Source of the DNA: a virus
Length of the DNA: 21,119 nt
Strand: one strand, 5' to 3'
IMG/VR virus record: IMGVR_UViG_3300009073_000037
Location: 1-21,119 of that record
In this document: positions 8,374 to 17,637 of the stretch, piece by piece
Position numbering within the stretch: position 1 is the first letter of the stretch
Layout: the number at the start of each line of letters is the position of its first letter
The notes under the pieces: generated by a model
Databases searched by the model: none
Seen by the model: the letters and a program-made list of their open reading frames with translations, nothing else
What the model was told of the DNA's origin: nothing
Made by a program: the position numbers and the translations under genes

Positions 8374-9527
8374 TATTGCACCACCTCTGTTAATTCTGTA
8401 TCTCCAAACGCAGCCGAAGTAGGCTCTAGAGATAGAGTGAATGCGCCTGCTGCTATATCGTAATTAATTTCCCTTATTCTCAGTATCCCTCTGAACTCTC
8501 TGCAGGAAGCCGAAACATCGACATACACTTTAACGCCAGCAACAAGTGACGCAACATCTATTGGCGTTCCCGGCCTTAACACGGCGCCGCTTTCTGAAGA
8601 TATGTAAAAAGGATCAGAGAATGTTTTTAAATAAGCCTGAGCGGCCAGGGTAAGATCTTTTTTGTTTGTTAGCTGCAGAAACTCAACGACTCTTTCGATT
8701 ACTCCATAATTCGATATAGTCGCTTCATCAGCCTGAACCGTTACCGGGTCCCCAGATTCCCCAAATGCTATAATTCTAGTGGCAAACCCTTGACGGGGGC
8801 CGAGCATTTCTATCTTTAAAGCCGAGCTGAAGTCCCTGTCTGTGAATTCATATTGCAAAGTAGGAAAAGATGATGGCGGGCCGATTATTACTTTGCGACC
8901 GACTGCGGTATAGTCAATTCCGAAATCAGCTATTTCATCAATCGCATCTGACGCCGTGCGCTTGTCATCAGCTTCGACTACCGTCTCTGCGTACTGGCCT
9001 GTTTCAGAAGTGACGATTTGAAAACCATTTACTTGATTGAGTTCCATTGCGCTTAGATGATACAGTCTAACAATGTCAGTAAGATCCTGAGCTGTACGAA
9101 TATTGATCCTGGGAAGAACTCTCGAAGCCCACCAAGATGTATTATCTTCAGCCTCTATGGTCATTAGTCCATCAGACCAAGAAATGTATTGTATAGGCCC
9201 AGCCCAAAATACATAATCTCCGAACCTAAACTCTAGCTCTTGCTTGCCAATAGATATGTCATCAAGATTTTCGCACTCCTGAATCTTCTTGGCTTCCTGG
9301 CCAGCTACGTTATTTGCGCTACCCCAGTCTAATATCATAGTCACTGTGGCTGTAGATGTTCCATCAATCAACCGATTAAAATTTCCAGCAGTTGGGTACA
9401 GTCTGGCGATTTCAGAAAGGCCACCTTGAGTTGTAACTCTGACTTGAAGATCAGATCCGTCAGTCAGCTTGGCTTCAATTGACTTTTGACTTGGCCCAAA
9501 CGAAGGCGCTAATTGTATTCCAGCCAT
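8373..9527 (-). CDS. Minor tail protein (baseplate/hub type)
   Basis: A 384-residue protein likely to be part of the tail tip. Visible pattern: an N-terminal beta-rich domain containing FGDYVFWAGPIQYISW and GLMTIEAEDNTSWWASRVLP (about 100-140), which matches the oligonucleotide-fold tail protein layout of many siphophages; a middle region with DKRTASDAIDEIADFGIDYTAVGRKVIIGP (about 185-215), typical of hub or tail-associated proteins; and a C-terminal beta-rich part. It has only two cysteines, in contrast with its upstream neighbour. The ATG overlaps the upstream stop as TAATG, suggesting coupled translation. The order tape measure, large tail protein, then this protein fits the usual siphovirus tail operon. 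Confidence 0.7.
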   Translation of the reverse strand: MAGIQLAPSFGPSQKSIEAKLTDGSDLQVRVTTQGGLSEIARLYPTAGNFNRLIDGTSTATVTMILDWGSANNVAGQEAKKIQECENLDDISIGKQELEFRFGDYVFWAGPIQYISWSDGLMTIEAEDNTSWWASRVLPRINIRTAQDLTDIVRLYHLSAMELNQVNGFQIVTSETGQYAETVVEADDKRTASDAIDEIADFGIDYTAVGRKVIIGPPSSFPTLQYEFTDRDFSSALKIEMLGPRQGFATRIIAFGESGDPVTVQADEATISNYGVIERVVEFLQLTNKKDLTLAAQAYLKTFSDPFYISSESGAVLRPGTPIDVASLVAGVKVYVDVSASCREFRGILRIREINYDIAAGAFTLSLEPTSAAFGDTELTEVVQ

Positions 9528-12367
9528 TAAAAACCGCCACCGCTGTTGCCGAGCGTTAGCCCACCAGAAGAACTTGATCTTTTGGCGAACTTGATTTGGT
9601 AATTGAGGTCAGGCGCAGAGTTTTCACAATCTATTTCTACTTGTATGAAATACGTCTTACAAGGCTCTGCTACAAAATCTCTGTATGGCTGACTACAACC
9701 ACCACTTATGTAGCGGTTAGCAGCTTCAGGGATCTTGCCTGGCCTAGCTAGAGTTATGCGTCCAGACTCTCCATCAATTGTTAAAGTAGAATTTTCTGGC
9801 AAAATGCCGATCTCTAGAGACCACACCTCTTCCTGGTCACAGTAGAAAGATCCGGTAAAAGCATCACATACCGTAAAGTCGATTAAAGGGCCACAGTCTT
9901 GGAAAGGTGAAGGTGAAGGGGTTAAGATAATTGGCTCGCCATCTTCACTAAAAAATTCTGGCTGGCCTTCGACCAACAGCCTCGGGCAAGCTCTGGAAAA
10001 TGGAAGAGGAACAAATTCTGAATCTATATCAGGTTGATATGCTCCATCATCGGTAAAACTAATCGCCCCTACAACACCAAGACAGTTAGCATATATTGAC
10101 CATTTTTGCCGAAGCTCAAATGAGCCTAGTCCTGTTGTATTTATATATCCGTCACCGCTTATGATGAATCCTGAAGATTCGGCACATCGTAAATATTCAC
10201 ATTGTTGAGGATTATAGTTTGGATTTTCAAGAACTCCAGCATCACATGGTGATATCTGAGCCTCACTAAGTTTTTCCCAAGCCCTAACTCTGAAATTCCT
10301 CATATCTGAAGATCCAGTATTTAGTGTTAGTTGCTGCACCGCAGAGAATGTAGTTGAATTGTTTTCATATTCGCAGCAGTCCAAAGAGACCATTTCTGGA
10401 TCAGTAAAACACGAACTGGGGCCAGTGCTTGTATCAGTAGGCAGCGCAACAGTTTCCCAACAAGCCTCTTCACAATCGCCCACAGCGAAGCTCGGGAAGA
10501 TCAGCCTTGGAACGCCCTCTTTACCGGCTGGAATTTCAGCGCAAGGCGGAAGGTCCACGAGAACTTCAAGATTGCGACATACCTTGCCAGTGTTTTGCTC
10601 CTTGTTCAAAACATAATTGCACAAAGGGTCCGGAAATTGCGCCCAACAATCTCTTTCGAAATTAATCGGAACCCAAAGATTATTAATTGTGTCTATTTCT
10701 ATTCTGCAATCTTTTACAAACTCACACTCAACGCCCTCACACGAAGTGCGATCAATTGTTAAGGTGGCTCCAATTGGGGGAAATGGGTTTACCCTAAAGT
10801 CGCTACAAGTGCGATCAAATAGCCCTGGAGGCGGTGTGCCATTAGGCGGTGGGCATTCCTCTTCTTCTTTTGGACAAGAGCAATCTACGGCCTCACAAGG
10901 AGGCAATGCACCAACGGCTGGCGCCCAATTCAAGGGAGTCCAAGTGCCGCAGTTAGGGCCAGAGAAATTTAGTTTAACAAGTGCGCAGTTATCGCCAGAA
11001 GACGGAGACTCTGTCATCCATTTTTCATTACCTTCGCATTCGCCATCACAGGGATTAAATCCTGGGTTGCGCACAATTAGTTCTTCGACAACAATATCGC
11101 AGTCACACGGTATTTCGCCGTCAGAAGACCAGCGAATTGTAGAGAACGCCGTCTCTCCCGTCTCTGCGTCGTAGGCAAGAATAACTTGATATGGAGAACA
11201 CTCCGGGCCTTCTTCTTCTTCGAAATCAGCAATGACTACAACGCCATCGCCGCCGCCAAACTGAGTCTGCTCCCAATCCCAGTCACCAATTTTGCAGACA
11301 CCACCACAGCGCTGAAGCATGATTGGAAACCTATCACGCTCTACTAGAAATTCACGCTCTTGATAGACTGGACGTGGCTTCGGGCAACTGAAAGCTTTAT
11401 CGCAGGAAAGATTATTCAGTACATTTTCCAAACAAACTTCTGGCTCTTGGTAAATCCAAGGGTCTTCAGAGCAGAGGGTGAATTGCACGCGGGCGTAATA
11501 GCGGCCTTCACCGTGTTGCCTGCCGCTATCACCCATCCTGATAGTTTCTGTGACTTCAGGACCAAGACTTACACTAACATTGCGAATGTGTCTTACGGCG
11601 TCTTTTGGATCTGTTTCGCCTGGAGGGCAAAATGCTGCGGAGTAAAGATCAAACTTTCCGCAGTTTGCCATAATAGTGAAGAGGTTGTCGTAATAAGAAA
11701 CCCCATACTCTATAGCGCTCTCGCTGCAACCTATCAAATAAAAGTCAAACGTTAGACAGCGGCCGTCTCTTCTGGAAAGCCCATGAGAGGACCCGCTAAG
11801 CGCATTTGGCGTAATTACCCTAGAGAATGTAGAACCCCAGCCCCCAACATCAAATAGTATGGGGCCAGTTAGTTGATAACTGGCAGGATGACAGTCATCC
11901 CACCAAGGGGCGACAGAGAATTCCAATTCTTCATCACCAAAATCACAACCGCTGCCAGCCTTGGGTACGGCATAACATTTACTAACTCCTGGCTGAATAT
12001 CAAATGGTAATTCGTTAACAATATCAAGTGGCTCTGGAGGCTCGCTTAATCCAGTGTTATTTACCTGGACGACCGCTGGCTCGCCAGAGTCATCATCGCA
12101 ATCGAGTGTAAAGGTGGTGGTTGTATCTATATCTGGCCCGTCAGCAACAGCGGCCCTCTGAGCGGCCAGCGCTGAGATATCTTTATATACTGGCGTGTCG
12201 GTTATGTAAGGACCGGGGTCTGTGGGTATCCGAGACGCGCCTGGGCAGGATTTGAACTTTTCAATCTGCTTGATACCCATTGCTTGAGCGTAGGCAACCG
12301 TTCGCTGATTATTAAACAGTTCATAGGTTTTGCCATTTATAACTATCTCGTACCATTCGGCCAACAT
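9527..12367 (-). CDS. Giant cysteine-rich minor tail protein
   Basis: A 946-residue protein directly after the tape measure (TAAATG junction, no ribosome binding site, so probably coupled). By position it is the distal tail or tail-fibre-base protein. Residues about 165-310 (FDVGGWGSTFSRVI, then YYDNLFTIMANCGKFDLYSA, then YYARVQFTLCSEDPWIY) look like the beta-sandwich repeat of distal tail proteins. I count about 50 cysteines spread through the protein, often with acidic or Pro residues around them (CDCD, CDGEC, CEAVDCSC, DCEEAC, CPPPNGTPPPG). Such richness implies many disulfides or metal sites. The C-terminus is Ser/Gly-rich (about 930-946). No enzymatic motif seen. Tail-tip placement is inference from order; cysteine content is direct observation. 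Confidence 0.7.
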   Translation of the reverse strand: MLAEWYEIVINGKTYELFNNQRTVAYAQAMGIKQIEKFKSCPGASRIPTDPGPYITDTPVYKDISALAAQRAAVADGPDIDTTTTFTLDCDDDSGEPAVVQVNNTGLSEPPEPLDIVNELPFDIQPGVSKCYAVPKAGSGCDFGDEELEFSVAPWWDDCHPASYQLTGPILFDVGGWGSTFSRVITPNALSGSSHGLSRRDGRCLTFDFYLIGCSESAIEYGVSYYDNLFTIMANCGKFDLYSAAFCPPGETDPKDAVRHIRNVSVSLGPEVTETIRMGDSGRQHGEGRYYARVQFTLCSEDPWIYQEPEVCLENVLNNLSCDKAFSCPKPRPVYQEREFLVERDRFPIMLQRCGGVCKIGDWDWEQTQFGGGDGVVVIADFEEEEGPECSPYQVILAYDAETGETAFSTIRWSSDGEIPCDCDIVVEELIVRNPGFNPCDGECEGNEKWMTESPSSGDNCALVKLNFSGPNCGTWTPLNWAPAVGALPPCEAVDCSCPKEEEECPPPNGTPPPGLFDRTCSDFRVNPFPPIGATLTIDRTSCEGVECEFVKDCRIEIDTINNLWVPINFERDCWAQFPDPLCNYVLNKEQNTGKVCRNLEVLVDLPPCAEIPAGKEGVPRLIFPSFAVGDCEEACWETVALPTDTSTGPSSCFTDPEMVSLDCCEYENNSTTFSAVQQLTLNTGSSDMRNFRVRAWEKLSEAQISPCDAGVLENPNYNPQQCEYLRCAESSGFIISGDGYINTTGLGSFELRQKWSIYANCLGVVGAISFTDDGAYQPDIDSEFVPLPFSRACPRLLVEGQPEFFSEDGEPIILTPSPSPFQDCGPLIDFTVCDAFTGSFYCDQEEVWSLEIGILPENSTLTIDGESGRITLARPGKIPEAANRYISGGCSQPYRDFVAEPCKTYFIQVEIDCENSAPDLNYQIKFAKRSSSSGGLTLGNSGGGF

Positions 12368-15300
12368 TTAAATTACACGACCGTTTCTGCGCCTAGAGGC
12401 TTCTTCTGCTGCTTGAATTCTCATCATTACTTGATCGGCGTCCACACCATAAATATTATAAGTGTTGCCATTGCCAGATTCTTCAAATCCAGCCGCACCC
12501 ATCATACCACTTCCAGCTAATATACCAGCGACTCCTGCGCTGCGCATAAGATTAGCCATACGTGCGGGTCGGGTCAGCGGCAAGATGGCTTCTCGACCAG
12601 CTTCGCCGTATATACCCAAAGTTGCTCTGTCAAAGATGCCACCAGATGCGTTGAGGCCAATCGCACCGCCCACACTACCTATGGCACCGCCGACGCTGCC
12701 TATGGCGCCGCCCACACCGCCTAATACGCCGCCCGCAAAGTCGAGAGGCGCTGTTACGATTGACTTTAGATCCTCCCAAGCGCCTTTGATTGGGTCTATG
12801 ACTGTCTCTGTAAACCAAGTAGCTATACCGCCCCAAGCTTCAACTATAAGATCCTTGGCGGCAACAAAGAGATTACCTATTGACTTGGCTAGTTCTATTA
12901 TTTTTTCAATAGCCCAGGTGAATGGGTTTATAAATATTGTTTCAATAACTGTCCAAATAGCGCTAAAGATTGCGCTAAACATATCGACCAGCCAATTAAA
13001 GGCGGCGACAGCGGCGTCAGCGGCGGCTCTAGCGGCTGAGCCTATGCCGCCCCAAACCGCAGAAGCTATTCCACCAAGTCCCTGGAGCAGCCCACCTACC
13101 AACTCCACCATAAACCCAATGGCCGACCCAATAGCTGAAATCACAACATCAAAACCAATCTTCAAGCCCTCGAACAGAACAACAAACAGTGTCATTATGA
13201 ATTTGGTGCTTCGCTCAAGTCCCTGACCGATGCCGAGCCATTTGGCTCCAATCTTTTGAAAGAATCCAATTATTACATCAAATACTTCTTTAAATACTTT
13301 TCCTATTATTGGGATTCTCTTTAATACACTAGTGAATTTACCAAGAAATTTAGCAATAGGCACAAGCTGGATGCCTTCCCAAATAGCTCTGAAGAAGTTA
13401 ATCGCAGCTTCTTTCCACTCGCCCCTGAACAAAGCGGAAATCGTATCCATGATTCTCGCCAGGAATCGGAAAGGAGTCGCAACAATTTCGCCAAGTATTC
13501 TAAACGCTCCCATCACAATTTTGAGAGCCACTTCATTACCTTGTATTGAAGAAACCAAGCCATTGAAGGAGCCTATTAAGTCTAATATGGCTGCCATTAC
13601 TGTAGCTACAGCTGGTGCTATCAAGCCAATAAATCCAATAATTCCAGGCAGCAACCTGCCCAAAGCCTCAAAGGCAACGATTAGAGTTTCGCCAAAGTTG
13701 CCAATTCCGGCGCCACCAGAGAACATTTTAAAGACAGATTCTCCCTGCATCCCCAAATCGGCAAACCCGTCAGTCAGCCCTCCCACAAATGAATTTATTA
13801 ATTCTAGAAAGAAACCGGCTAATCCGCCCAAAGCTGTTTTGATACCGTCAAAGCCGCCAATTCTTTCACTTATGCTATTTATTTTGTCTATGAAGCTATT
13901 TACAAAATCTGTTAAAGTTTGCAAAGTATTTGATATACTTATTACGCTTTCGCCAAATCCAGCAAGCGGCGTACCTTGGAATGCATCAGATAAAGATTGG
14001 CCTATTTCACTTATTGACCCGCCGGATGTGAACGCCGAAATGGTGCCTGTGATTAAAGATATCTCGGTATTTAGTTCGCTCACCTTGTTTAAGGCTTCTG
14101 CAAAATTAGTTAACTGGCCAACTCTCTCATCAAAATCTCTATAAGTTCCAGTAGCCAATCTTATCGCTGTTGCGAAACCACTTATTTTATCAGTAGCATT
14201 ATTAAGAAAGCCAACAACCCTGCTCAGACCGCCCGTCATAAGATTTGCTAATTTGTCTTGAAGCTTACCCGTTCCTGAGAACGCATCAAAGAGAGCTGAG
14301 GCTAATTCTTTTAACGCTCCGCCGAATTGACTACTGGCCGATATTAGTTCCGCAAATGTGCTTCTGAAGGCCTGAGATGCCTCACTGGACCCAGTTATTA
14401 TATCAGAAAATAATTTAATCAGAAAGGCGAGACCCGCATATATAGGCAGCCTAAGAGTAAATCTTTTAATACTCTCCATAAACATGATAATGCTCATGGC
14501 AGCACGCACAAACATAAAGTTTATAGGACCTATGGCAGCAAGTCCGAGTATTGCTTTTATAAATGATTTAGTGGCTTCTGGGTTTGCCGCTATCATTTCA
14601 TTGAATCTTCTAACAAGTTCTGTTATTTTTTCAACAGGAGAGCTTACGGCATCAAGGCCTCCAAAGTCTCTACCCAAAACCAAAGCGGTCTCTTGGAGTT
14701 CCGACCTCAAGAGTTTAAGTTTGCTAAAGAACGAATCTTGCATGGTCTCGGCCATGTTGCCCATAAATCCTCTAAATTCAGCAGGATCTAAAGCATCTAT
14801 GGACGCTACGAACTCATCGATTGTTGCTCCACTTTGGAGAAGGCTAGCAAAACCAGGAGCGGCACGGAGGCCAAGAACTTTAAAGGTGTCGGCCAGGCTA
14901 ACGCCCTTCTCCTGAAATGCTCTAAAAGATTCGCCCAGGGTATTGGTTTCTAGAGATACATCATCTACGGCCAGACCATATTGATCTAATGATTTAATAA
15001 CAGCCGGAGTAAAGTTAACCAGTCTAGTAGAAAGGTTTTGAATAGCCGTAGAGGCTATCGAGCCTTTGATACCCCTGTCACCCAAAAAGCCTATGGCTCC
15101 AGCAATTTCTTCGAAACTTCTACCTACGGCTGTGGCTACTGGGCCACCACGTTTAAAGCCCTGCCAGAATTCTGCAAAATCAACGTTAGCCCTTGAAGTA
15201 ACCTGAGCTATAATTTCTGCTTGATCGGTAAAGGCCTGAGCATTTTTAATTTGCCCAGACGCGTCAATTGTGCCAGTTACTTTACCAATATTTGTCAGAG

Positions 15301-15755
15301 CATCCGCCACACTATCGATATCTTCAGCGGTAGCGATAGCTAAATCGTTTGATGTTTGCATAACCAAACGCATTGTTTCAGATTCTTTAACGCCAGTTCT
15401 TGCAATAAAAACAGCTGAAGCGCTTAGTTGATCAGTTGTGAATATACTGGTTCGGCCAATATCTCTAATTACGCCTTCGTAAGCCGCCATTGATTGGCCT
15501 GCCTGATCGAAGAAGGCTGGATCGCCACCACTCAAAACAGCCTGAAGTTCTTGAATTTGATCCTCGAAAGAACCGGCGATCTTCATGACTTGGCCGAAAC
15601 CCGCGGCCACGGGCAGGAGAAAACCAATATTTACTTGATTACCACTATTATTGATTTTCGCTGCTAGCGAGTTCATCTGAGTTCTGGTAGCTGCTGCAAA
15701 TCCAGAAAAGTCAATTGGGCATGAACTTCACGAACGCGGTTCCCACTTCAGCCAT
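12368..15755 (-). CDS. Tape measure protein, needs a +1 shift near its start
   Basis: The tape measure sets tail length and is extruded with the DNA. The main frame (12368-15676) encodes 1102 residues. It contains a TP901-type core at about 30-350 (DQIQELQAVLSG, TSIFTTDQLSASAVFIARTGV), many hydrophobic helices, a Gly-rich repeat at about 985-1015, and the typical C-terminal GEAGREAILPL (about 1024-1034). ATG 15676 has no ribosome binding site. The ATG at 15755 has GGAGG 7 bases upstream and begins MAEVGTAFVKFMP, the usual tape measure N-terminus, but this frame ends at TGA 15711-15713; the protein continues in the +1 frame with IDFSGFAAATRTQ. So the full protein of about 1128 residues needs a +1 shift at CCC-AAT-TGA or there is a one-base error. 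I see no cysteine. Predicted tail length is roughly 170 nm at 0.15 nm per residue. Confidence 0.9.
12657..12735. repeat. 21-bp tandem repeats in the tape measure gene
   Basis: About three and a half copies of a 21-base unit encode GSVGGAI-type heptads on the minus strand (GGVGGAIGSVGGAIGSVGGA). They form a flexible Gly-rich hinge before the conserved C-terminal GEAGREAILPL segment. Confidence 0.75.
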
Positions 15756-15772
15756 ACCCTAACCTCCCATCT

Positions 15773-15791
15773 AGCGAAACTCGCATTCGCT
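15773..15791 (-). other. Small hairpin in the tape measure leader
   Basis: AGCGAA (15773-15778) and TTCGCT (15786-15791) pair around a 7-base loop, about 4 bases upstream of the GGGAGG ribosome binding site on the minus strand. It could influence access to the start. Confidence 0.45.
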
Positions 15792-15813
15792 GTATTAATT
15801 TTTACTGCATAAC

Positions 15814-16927: not shown

Positions 16928-17637
16928 TTAACCAGTAGAAGGCATCGGCTTTGTTTCGCCAGAATACCAGTTATCAGGCTTGCGCTTACCAGCAAGAGTT
17001 TTTCTATACTCTTCAGGCAACGCTTCGTCTTCTTCCTTGCTGCCAAGTATTGTGTCGGCCTGAAATAACAGTCCGTTAAACTGAGAAATTTGGGCAATAA
17101 CTTCTTCACCAGAGAACCAAGTTCCCCGAGTGTGGATTTCTTTTATAGCAGAATAGTAGACAAAGTCTAGGAAAGCAGATCCGTCGCAGTCATCAACAGA
17201 TTCGTACCCGGCTGAGAAGATGGCGCCGTTGAGGAAATGTCGGTTGTCGAGGTAGTATCCGACGAGTCCGTAGATGACGCTTGATCGTTTCCCATTATCT
17301 CTTCCATCAAAGTGGTGCTAATGTTAGCCAAATCGTTCATGTCTACCGATGAATCGGGCGCATCGACCATCTCTTGGAATGCTTTGCGAGAATCCTTTTC
17401 GAGCATGCTTAGTACGAGATCGTATTGGATTTGAAACATCTCGAACATAGCGGAGCCATCTGGTTCATCACTGTCAGCTTCCTTGACAAGCTGCATGATT
17501 GAGCCAAGGTTGAGAAGCGTTGAAACAGGAATAGCACTAACCGAAGTTAGTAATTGACCCTTGAATTCAAACTCCACGGCACTGTCTTCGCCTTTGGTCG
17601 TTTCTGCGGACTCTCTAATTTTAACTCTACGTGCCAT
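16928..17637 (-). CDS. Tail assembly chaperone G-T fusion made by -1 frameshift
   Basis: The G frame is read to the slippery heptamer GGGAAAC (17293-17287), where a -1 slip joins 117 G residues to 119 residues in the other frame, ending at TAA 16928. The second part is a convincing protein in a stretch otherwise without a gene: RSSVIYGLVGYYLDNRHFL right after the slip, then SVDDCDGSAFLDFVYYSAIKE and a C-terminal WYSGETKPMPSTG. By analogy with lambda G/GT, the long form is made in small amounts and recruits tape measure and tail tube subunits. A shadow frame at 16879-17109 is not the gene. The frame, heptamer and location before the tape measure are directly visible; slippage itself is inferred. 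Confidence 0.85.
17167..17637 (-). CDS. Tail assembly chaperone G
   Basis: The short 156-residue product that coats the tape measure during tail assembly and is lost from the virion. The beta-rich VEFEFKGQLLTSVSAIPVSTLLNL (about 21-45) and following helices up to 117 match the usual chaperone layout. After the slippery site the 0-frame tail (118-156) is a low-complexity Ser/Thr/Asp stretch (DQASSTDSSDTTSTTD), overlapped by the real coding frame of T, so it is probably just the tolerated read of the overlap. ATG 17637 has AGGGG 8 bases upstream, and a near-perfect promoter precedes it. First gene of the tail unit. Confidence 0.85.
   Translation of the reverse strand: MARRVKIRESAETTKGEDSAVEFEFKGQLLTSVSAIPVSTLLNLGSIMQLVKEADSDEPDGSAMFEMFQIQYDLVLSMLEKDSRKAFQEMVDAPDSSVDMNDLANISTTLMEEIMGNDQASSTDSSDTTSTTDISSTAPSSQPGTNLLMTATDLLS
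17287..17293 (-). promoter_or_regulatory. Slippery heptamer GGGAAAC for -1 frameshifting
   Basis: Read in the G frame as ATG-GGA-AAC, i.e. X XXY YYZ with X=G, Y=A, Z=C. After a -1 slip, GGA re-pairs as GGG and AAC as AAA. It is one base different from lambda's GGGAAAG. Confidence 0.85.

Follow-up and report, generated by a model that had tools for sequence, protein, structure and literature searches.

A tape measure gene start divided between two reading frames in a metagenomic siphophage contig, probably by an accidental length change

Is the tail ruler of this virus made by regulated +1 frameshifting, or has the start of an ordinary tape measure gene been broken? The window, i.e., the whole analyzed stretch of 21,119 bases from an IMG/VR virus record (G+C about 45%), carries its tail and head genes on the minus strand. 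There, the start of the tape measure protein (TMP) gene is laid out as follows:

15763..15767, minus strand: Shine-Dalgarno (SD) sequence GGAGG of the tape measure gene, 7 nt before ATG 15755 (sequence read)
15711..15755, minus strand: 14-codon stub ORF MAEVGTAFVKFMPN ending in a stop, by its profile score (23.3 bits, rank 1 of 27,112 peptides) a genuine TMP N-terminal strand
15711..15719, minus strand: frame-break junction CCC-AAT-TGA, with CCC at 15719-15717, AAT at 15716-15714 and TGA at 15713-15711 (sequence read)
12368..15715, minus strand: TMP +1 frame, IDFSGFAAATRTQ followed by a 1102-aa ORF from ATG 15676 (PF10145, PHROG tape measure families)
15674..15676, minus strand: earliest ATG downstream of the TGA; it is in the TMP frame, lacks an SD sequence and is a possible weak reinitiation site (sequence read)

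All coordinates given by the original prediction for GGAGG, ATG 15755, the 14-codon frame, its TGA and the +1 continuation agree exactly with the sequence as read. The IDFSGFAAATRTQ stretch runs stop-free in the +1 frame into the 1102-aa ORF (15676-12368). Between ATG 15676 and the preceding TGA this frame has no ATG, GTG or TTG, the sole and odd candidate start being one ATT. Read-through of the TGA was ruled out, as frame 0 is full of stops beyond it, and a tRNA or Rfam-family intron near the junction was searched for and rejected. An inverted repeat, CAGCGAA...TTCGCTA (minus strand, 15772-15792), lies immediately 5′ of the ribosome binding site.

The 1102-aa ORF has the core domain and the large size of a siphophage TMP. 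It matched PF10145 (PhageMin_Tail) with 75.8 bits, the entire core lying inside the ORF, and many PHROG tape measure families, the best at 5.9e-40. The continuous N-terminal motif of such proteins, in which three residues separate P from G[F/I], is however found as two halves in two frames. The window contains the motif pattern a single time, whereas 100 dinucleotide shuffles gave none, and the pattern is thus more than chance. With a matrix built from other TMPs, the stub peptide GTAFVKFMP scored 21.5 bits, compared with 11.6 for the next best of 27,112 nine-residue windows and 16.9 for the best score across 20 shuffled windows. On a profile of 28 distinct TMP N-termini, which is not fully independent because the search pattern was designed from the window itself, the stub reached its 23.3 bits and the ORF from ATG 15676 alone 5.2 bits. 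Positions that the pattern had left free (E, A, and AAA after GF) also agree with the profile. Judged by its sequence, the 14-codon stub represents the genuine start of the TMP, and both halves fit one TMP N-terminal profile. Profile scores and sequence reading thus bear out the proposal that the short ORF is the real TMP start with its frame broken by +1.

To see how other TMPs begin, we scanned IMG/VR together with 84,980 species genomes, using a DNA-level TMP N-terminus pattern that left 4–19 nt free between the P and GF codons, so that any frame relation could be matched. The search yielded 80 loci, of which 49 had TMP-like starts representing 28 distinct N-termini; ten loci sampled from the 49 were checked against PHROG, and all ten were TMPs. 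These known TMPs read MA-x-VG-x-A-[Y/F]-V-x-h-h-P-x-x-x-G-F, and the named genomes among them are mostly from actinobacterial and other Gram-positive hosts. They share with the window an SD sequence, an ATG, the MAEVGTAFVKFMP motif, then SGFAAA and then a long TMP frame. In the window, however, the motif is split, a break that occurred in none of the 49 TMPs with the same N-terminal motif from IMG/VR and the species genomes. All 49 stayed in a single frame as far as their sequence went, two of them being cut short by contig ends, and distant TMPs that share the PF10145 core likewise have single-frame N-termini.

The spacing within the motif was equally uniform: exactly three residues separate P from G[F/I] in 49 of 49 TMPs, and the distance from CC to GG is 10 nt in all of them versus 14 nt in the window. 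A +1 shift at the junction restores the frame, yet leaves four residues between P and GF, i.e., one extra, a spacing seen in none of the 49. Joined with the three-residue spacing, the two window halves scored 37.0 bits, compared with 28.6–29.4 bits when joined as +1-shift products. A start-independent scan for the exact 14-nt spacing found three loci, none of them a TMP.

Close relatives of the virus were sought by several routes. Exact-peptide scans of IMG/VR with the TMP, protease and AAA proteins, a TMP peptide scan of genome contigs and the N-terminal DNA pattern scan each returned no close relative. An alignment-based search with the protease gave 80 phage loci at 38–46% identity, and no match to the window TMP was found in 50 records of such protease-matching phages. 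A TMP core pattern retrieved 50 loci, the best at about 28% identity over the main stretch, and tblastn against plasmids and phages gave distant TMPs only. Over its main stretch, none of the relatives retrieved for this TMP came closer than about 30%. The joined 65-aa N-terminus as query had no useful phage match. The ancestral form of this TMP start is therefore an inference from distant families, which counts against the reading of an accidental break favored below.

The tape measure gene stands in the following gene order:

18629-17730, minus strand: capsid-protease-like gene, closest to actinobacterial phages (top-listed match: lake phage DSL-LC01)
17637-16930, minus strand: G/GT chaperone-like pair, assigned by arrangement and frameshift anatomy
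16892-15867, minus strand: HNH-like gene of 341 aa with CxxC zinc motifs recognized by eye
after the HNH-like gene, minus strand: tape measure region, then minor tail genes

Location downstream of a G/GT tail assembly chaperone, a further feature of TMP genes, is thus found here with the HNH-like gene intervening, and the chaperone call itself rests on arrangement and frameshift anatomy. The zero-frame ORF (17637-17167) contains the slippery GGGAAAC at 17295 in zero frame, and the −1 frame is open from 17317 to 16930. Pfam and PHROG searches of the pair gave no chaperone match; it appears to be a divergent member of the lambda G/GT type, and its −1 site is ordinary. Directly 5′ of the chaperone gene, at 17710-17681, lies a sigma-70 promoter sequence with a perfect 12/12 match (TTGACA, 18 nt, TATAAT preceded by TG). 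The gap between the capsid-protease-like gene and the chaperone gene is only about 90 nt (17730-17637). In phage DSL-LC01 the corresponding genes are about 7 kb apart, and the genes for the major capsid, major tail and adaptor proteins lie in this interval; reordering of genes, a deletion or a chimeric join could account for the short gap. The HNH-like gene, without a match in a Pfam search, is only 111 nt away from the broken TMP start; a homing nuclease might conceivably have left the length change. Further along, a cysteine-rich minor tail protein of 946 aa (9527-12367) matches the uncharacterised phrog_838 with residues 144-362; this part has tblastn matches mainly in mycobacteriophages, and the remainder has no detected relatives.

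We then asked whether the junction resembles a recoding site. The original prediction had likened it to prfB (release factor 2), where CUU-UGA-C, like the window, combines a UGA-C stop with a +1 continuation. In prfB, however, the slippery codon adjoins the stop and re-pairs in +1, whereas in the window AAT lies between CCC and TGA. The comparison hence fails on the P-site codon: when TGA occupies the A site, the P site contains AAT instead of CCC, and tRNA-Asn would need to re-pair at ATT, which it cannot do. If CCC is placed in the P site, the codon to be decoded next is AAT, a common sense codon (26.8 per 1000), and therefore no stall is expected. No SD-like stimulator was seen in the upstream sequence read, and folding was not unusual either downstream (z = +0.19) or across the junction (z = −0.79). 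The lambda-type −1 shift of the neighbouring chaperone pair follows the same operon order and differs from the TMP junction in direction, in gene and in its recognised slippery heptamer (GGGAAAC, 17295). A +1 shift at a proline CCC codon has reportedly been proposed for structural genes of Listeria phage PSA; the PSA shifts are said to occur late in the capsid and tail genes, close to the 3′ end, and to add a C-terminal extension, whereas the window, sharing the CCC, would shift at the TMP N-terminus.

A programmed +1 frameshift, in which tRNA-Pro slips from CCC to CCA and continues with ATT-GAC in the TMP frame to give regulated expression of the tail ruler, is unlikely on this evidence. It can draw on good re-pairing of tRNA-Pro(UGG), an isoacceptor that is shift-prone on CCC (PMC4519876), at CCA, and on CCC being the rarest Pro codon in this phage (5.2 per 1000). 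The site also formally passes the loose forward-shift filter of PRFect, i.e., a three-base run and a commoner +1 A-site codon (PMC10885494), here ATT at 30.8 against AAT at 26.8 per 1000. However, forward shifts before stops in RECODE are mostly at CUU or UCC (PMC10885494), and the SEA-PHAGES joined frameshift genes (n = 2476) are 2397 tail assembly chaperones and 79 hypothetical genes. In the other reading frames of the window counted as genes (stub excluded), there are 12 in-frame instances of CCC with a following A. Together with the stop standing apart from the slippery codon, the common AAT, the lack of a visible stimulator or unusual structure, the absence of any other TMP split in this way among the 49 with the same motif and the extra residue within an otherwise invariant spacing, this leaves regulated +1 frameshifting of the TMP unsupported. 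We consider it decidedly unlikely that tail-ruler synthesis requires a +1 shift at CCC-A in the first 14 codons, an event that would be separate from the chaperone −1 shift.

The stub might instead serve as a translated leader that terminates at TGA 15713, with reinitiation at ATG 15676 giving a shorter 1102-aa TMP devoid of the usual N-terminal strand. In its favor, a strong SD precedes the stub, ATG 15676 follows the stop by about 35 nt with no other ATG in between and lies in the TMP frame, and the whole PF10145 core is retained in the shorter product. Yet this ATG has no SD of its own, a comparable case was not found, and the conserved N-terminal sequence kept in the stub and in the DFSGFAAATRTQ stretch would be difficult to reconcile with an old break; such a leader is improbable. 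An unusual ATT, or some other non-canonical codon of the +1 frame, is very improbable as the true start. The ATT at 15715-15713 is in the TMP frame and overlaps the stop, but ATT is a very weak start, here without a properly spaced SD, and it would give no account of the conserved MAEVGTAFVKFMP or of the ATG and SD in front of it.

We therefore favor an ordinary siphophage TMP gene with its start broken by an accidental, non-programmed length change, which in our judgment is the probable explanation. The 5′ part (SD, ATG, MAEVGTAFVKFMP) and the 3′ part beginning with DFSGFAAATRTQ would be halves of a single canonical TMP N-terminus, and the length change would lie between codons 13 and 18. The halves are homologous to the starts of other TMPs, their spacing is anomalous and the comparable genes are in a single frame; that the break was accidental we infer. 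It would stem either from an error in the metagenomic consensus or assembly or from a real mutation in the sampled virus. In the latter case, spontaneous slippage or weak reinitiation at ATG 15676 might still supply a little TMP. Few TMP copies are needed per virion, and a low supply might therefore suffice. A dead TMP in a dominant lytic virus would nevertheless be unexpected, and the lethality to be expected of it argues somewhat against a fixed real mutation. For an error there is a precedent, as an apparent frameshift at the presumptive tape measure locus of B. thuringiensis BtI1 was put down to an error in the draft sequence (PMC2147016). The original prediction had itself allowed for a one-base error or an inactivating mutation; this alternative comes closer to the evidence, although the spacing points to a net 4-nt gain and not to one of 1 nt. 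Such a gain is atypical of a single-base error and argues somewhat against simple base-calling error. The contig is also not visibly error-prone, since the other long genes of the window are intact.

If the TMP were nevertheless expressed by a +1 shift, this would be a second translational control in the phage tail operon, one that governs the dosage of the ruler. The locus also carries a caution: a strongly conserved protein start lying in two frames of one metagenomic contig needs a check of the reads before recoding is called. A simple yardstick for spotting such frame breaks is the P-x-x-x-G-[F/I] spacing, which is invariant at the TMP N-termini surveyed.
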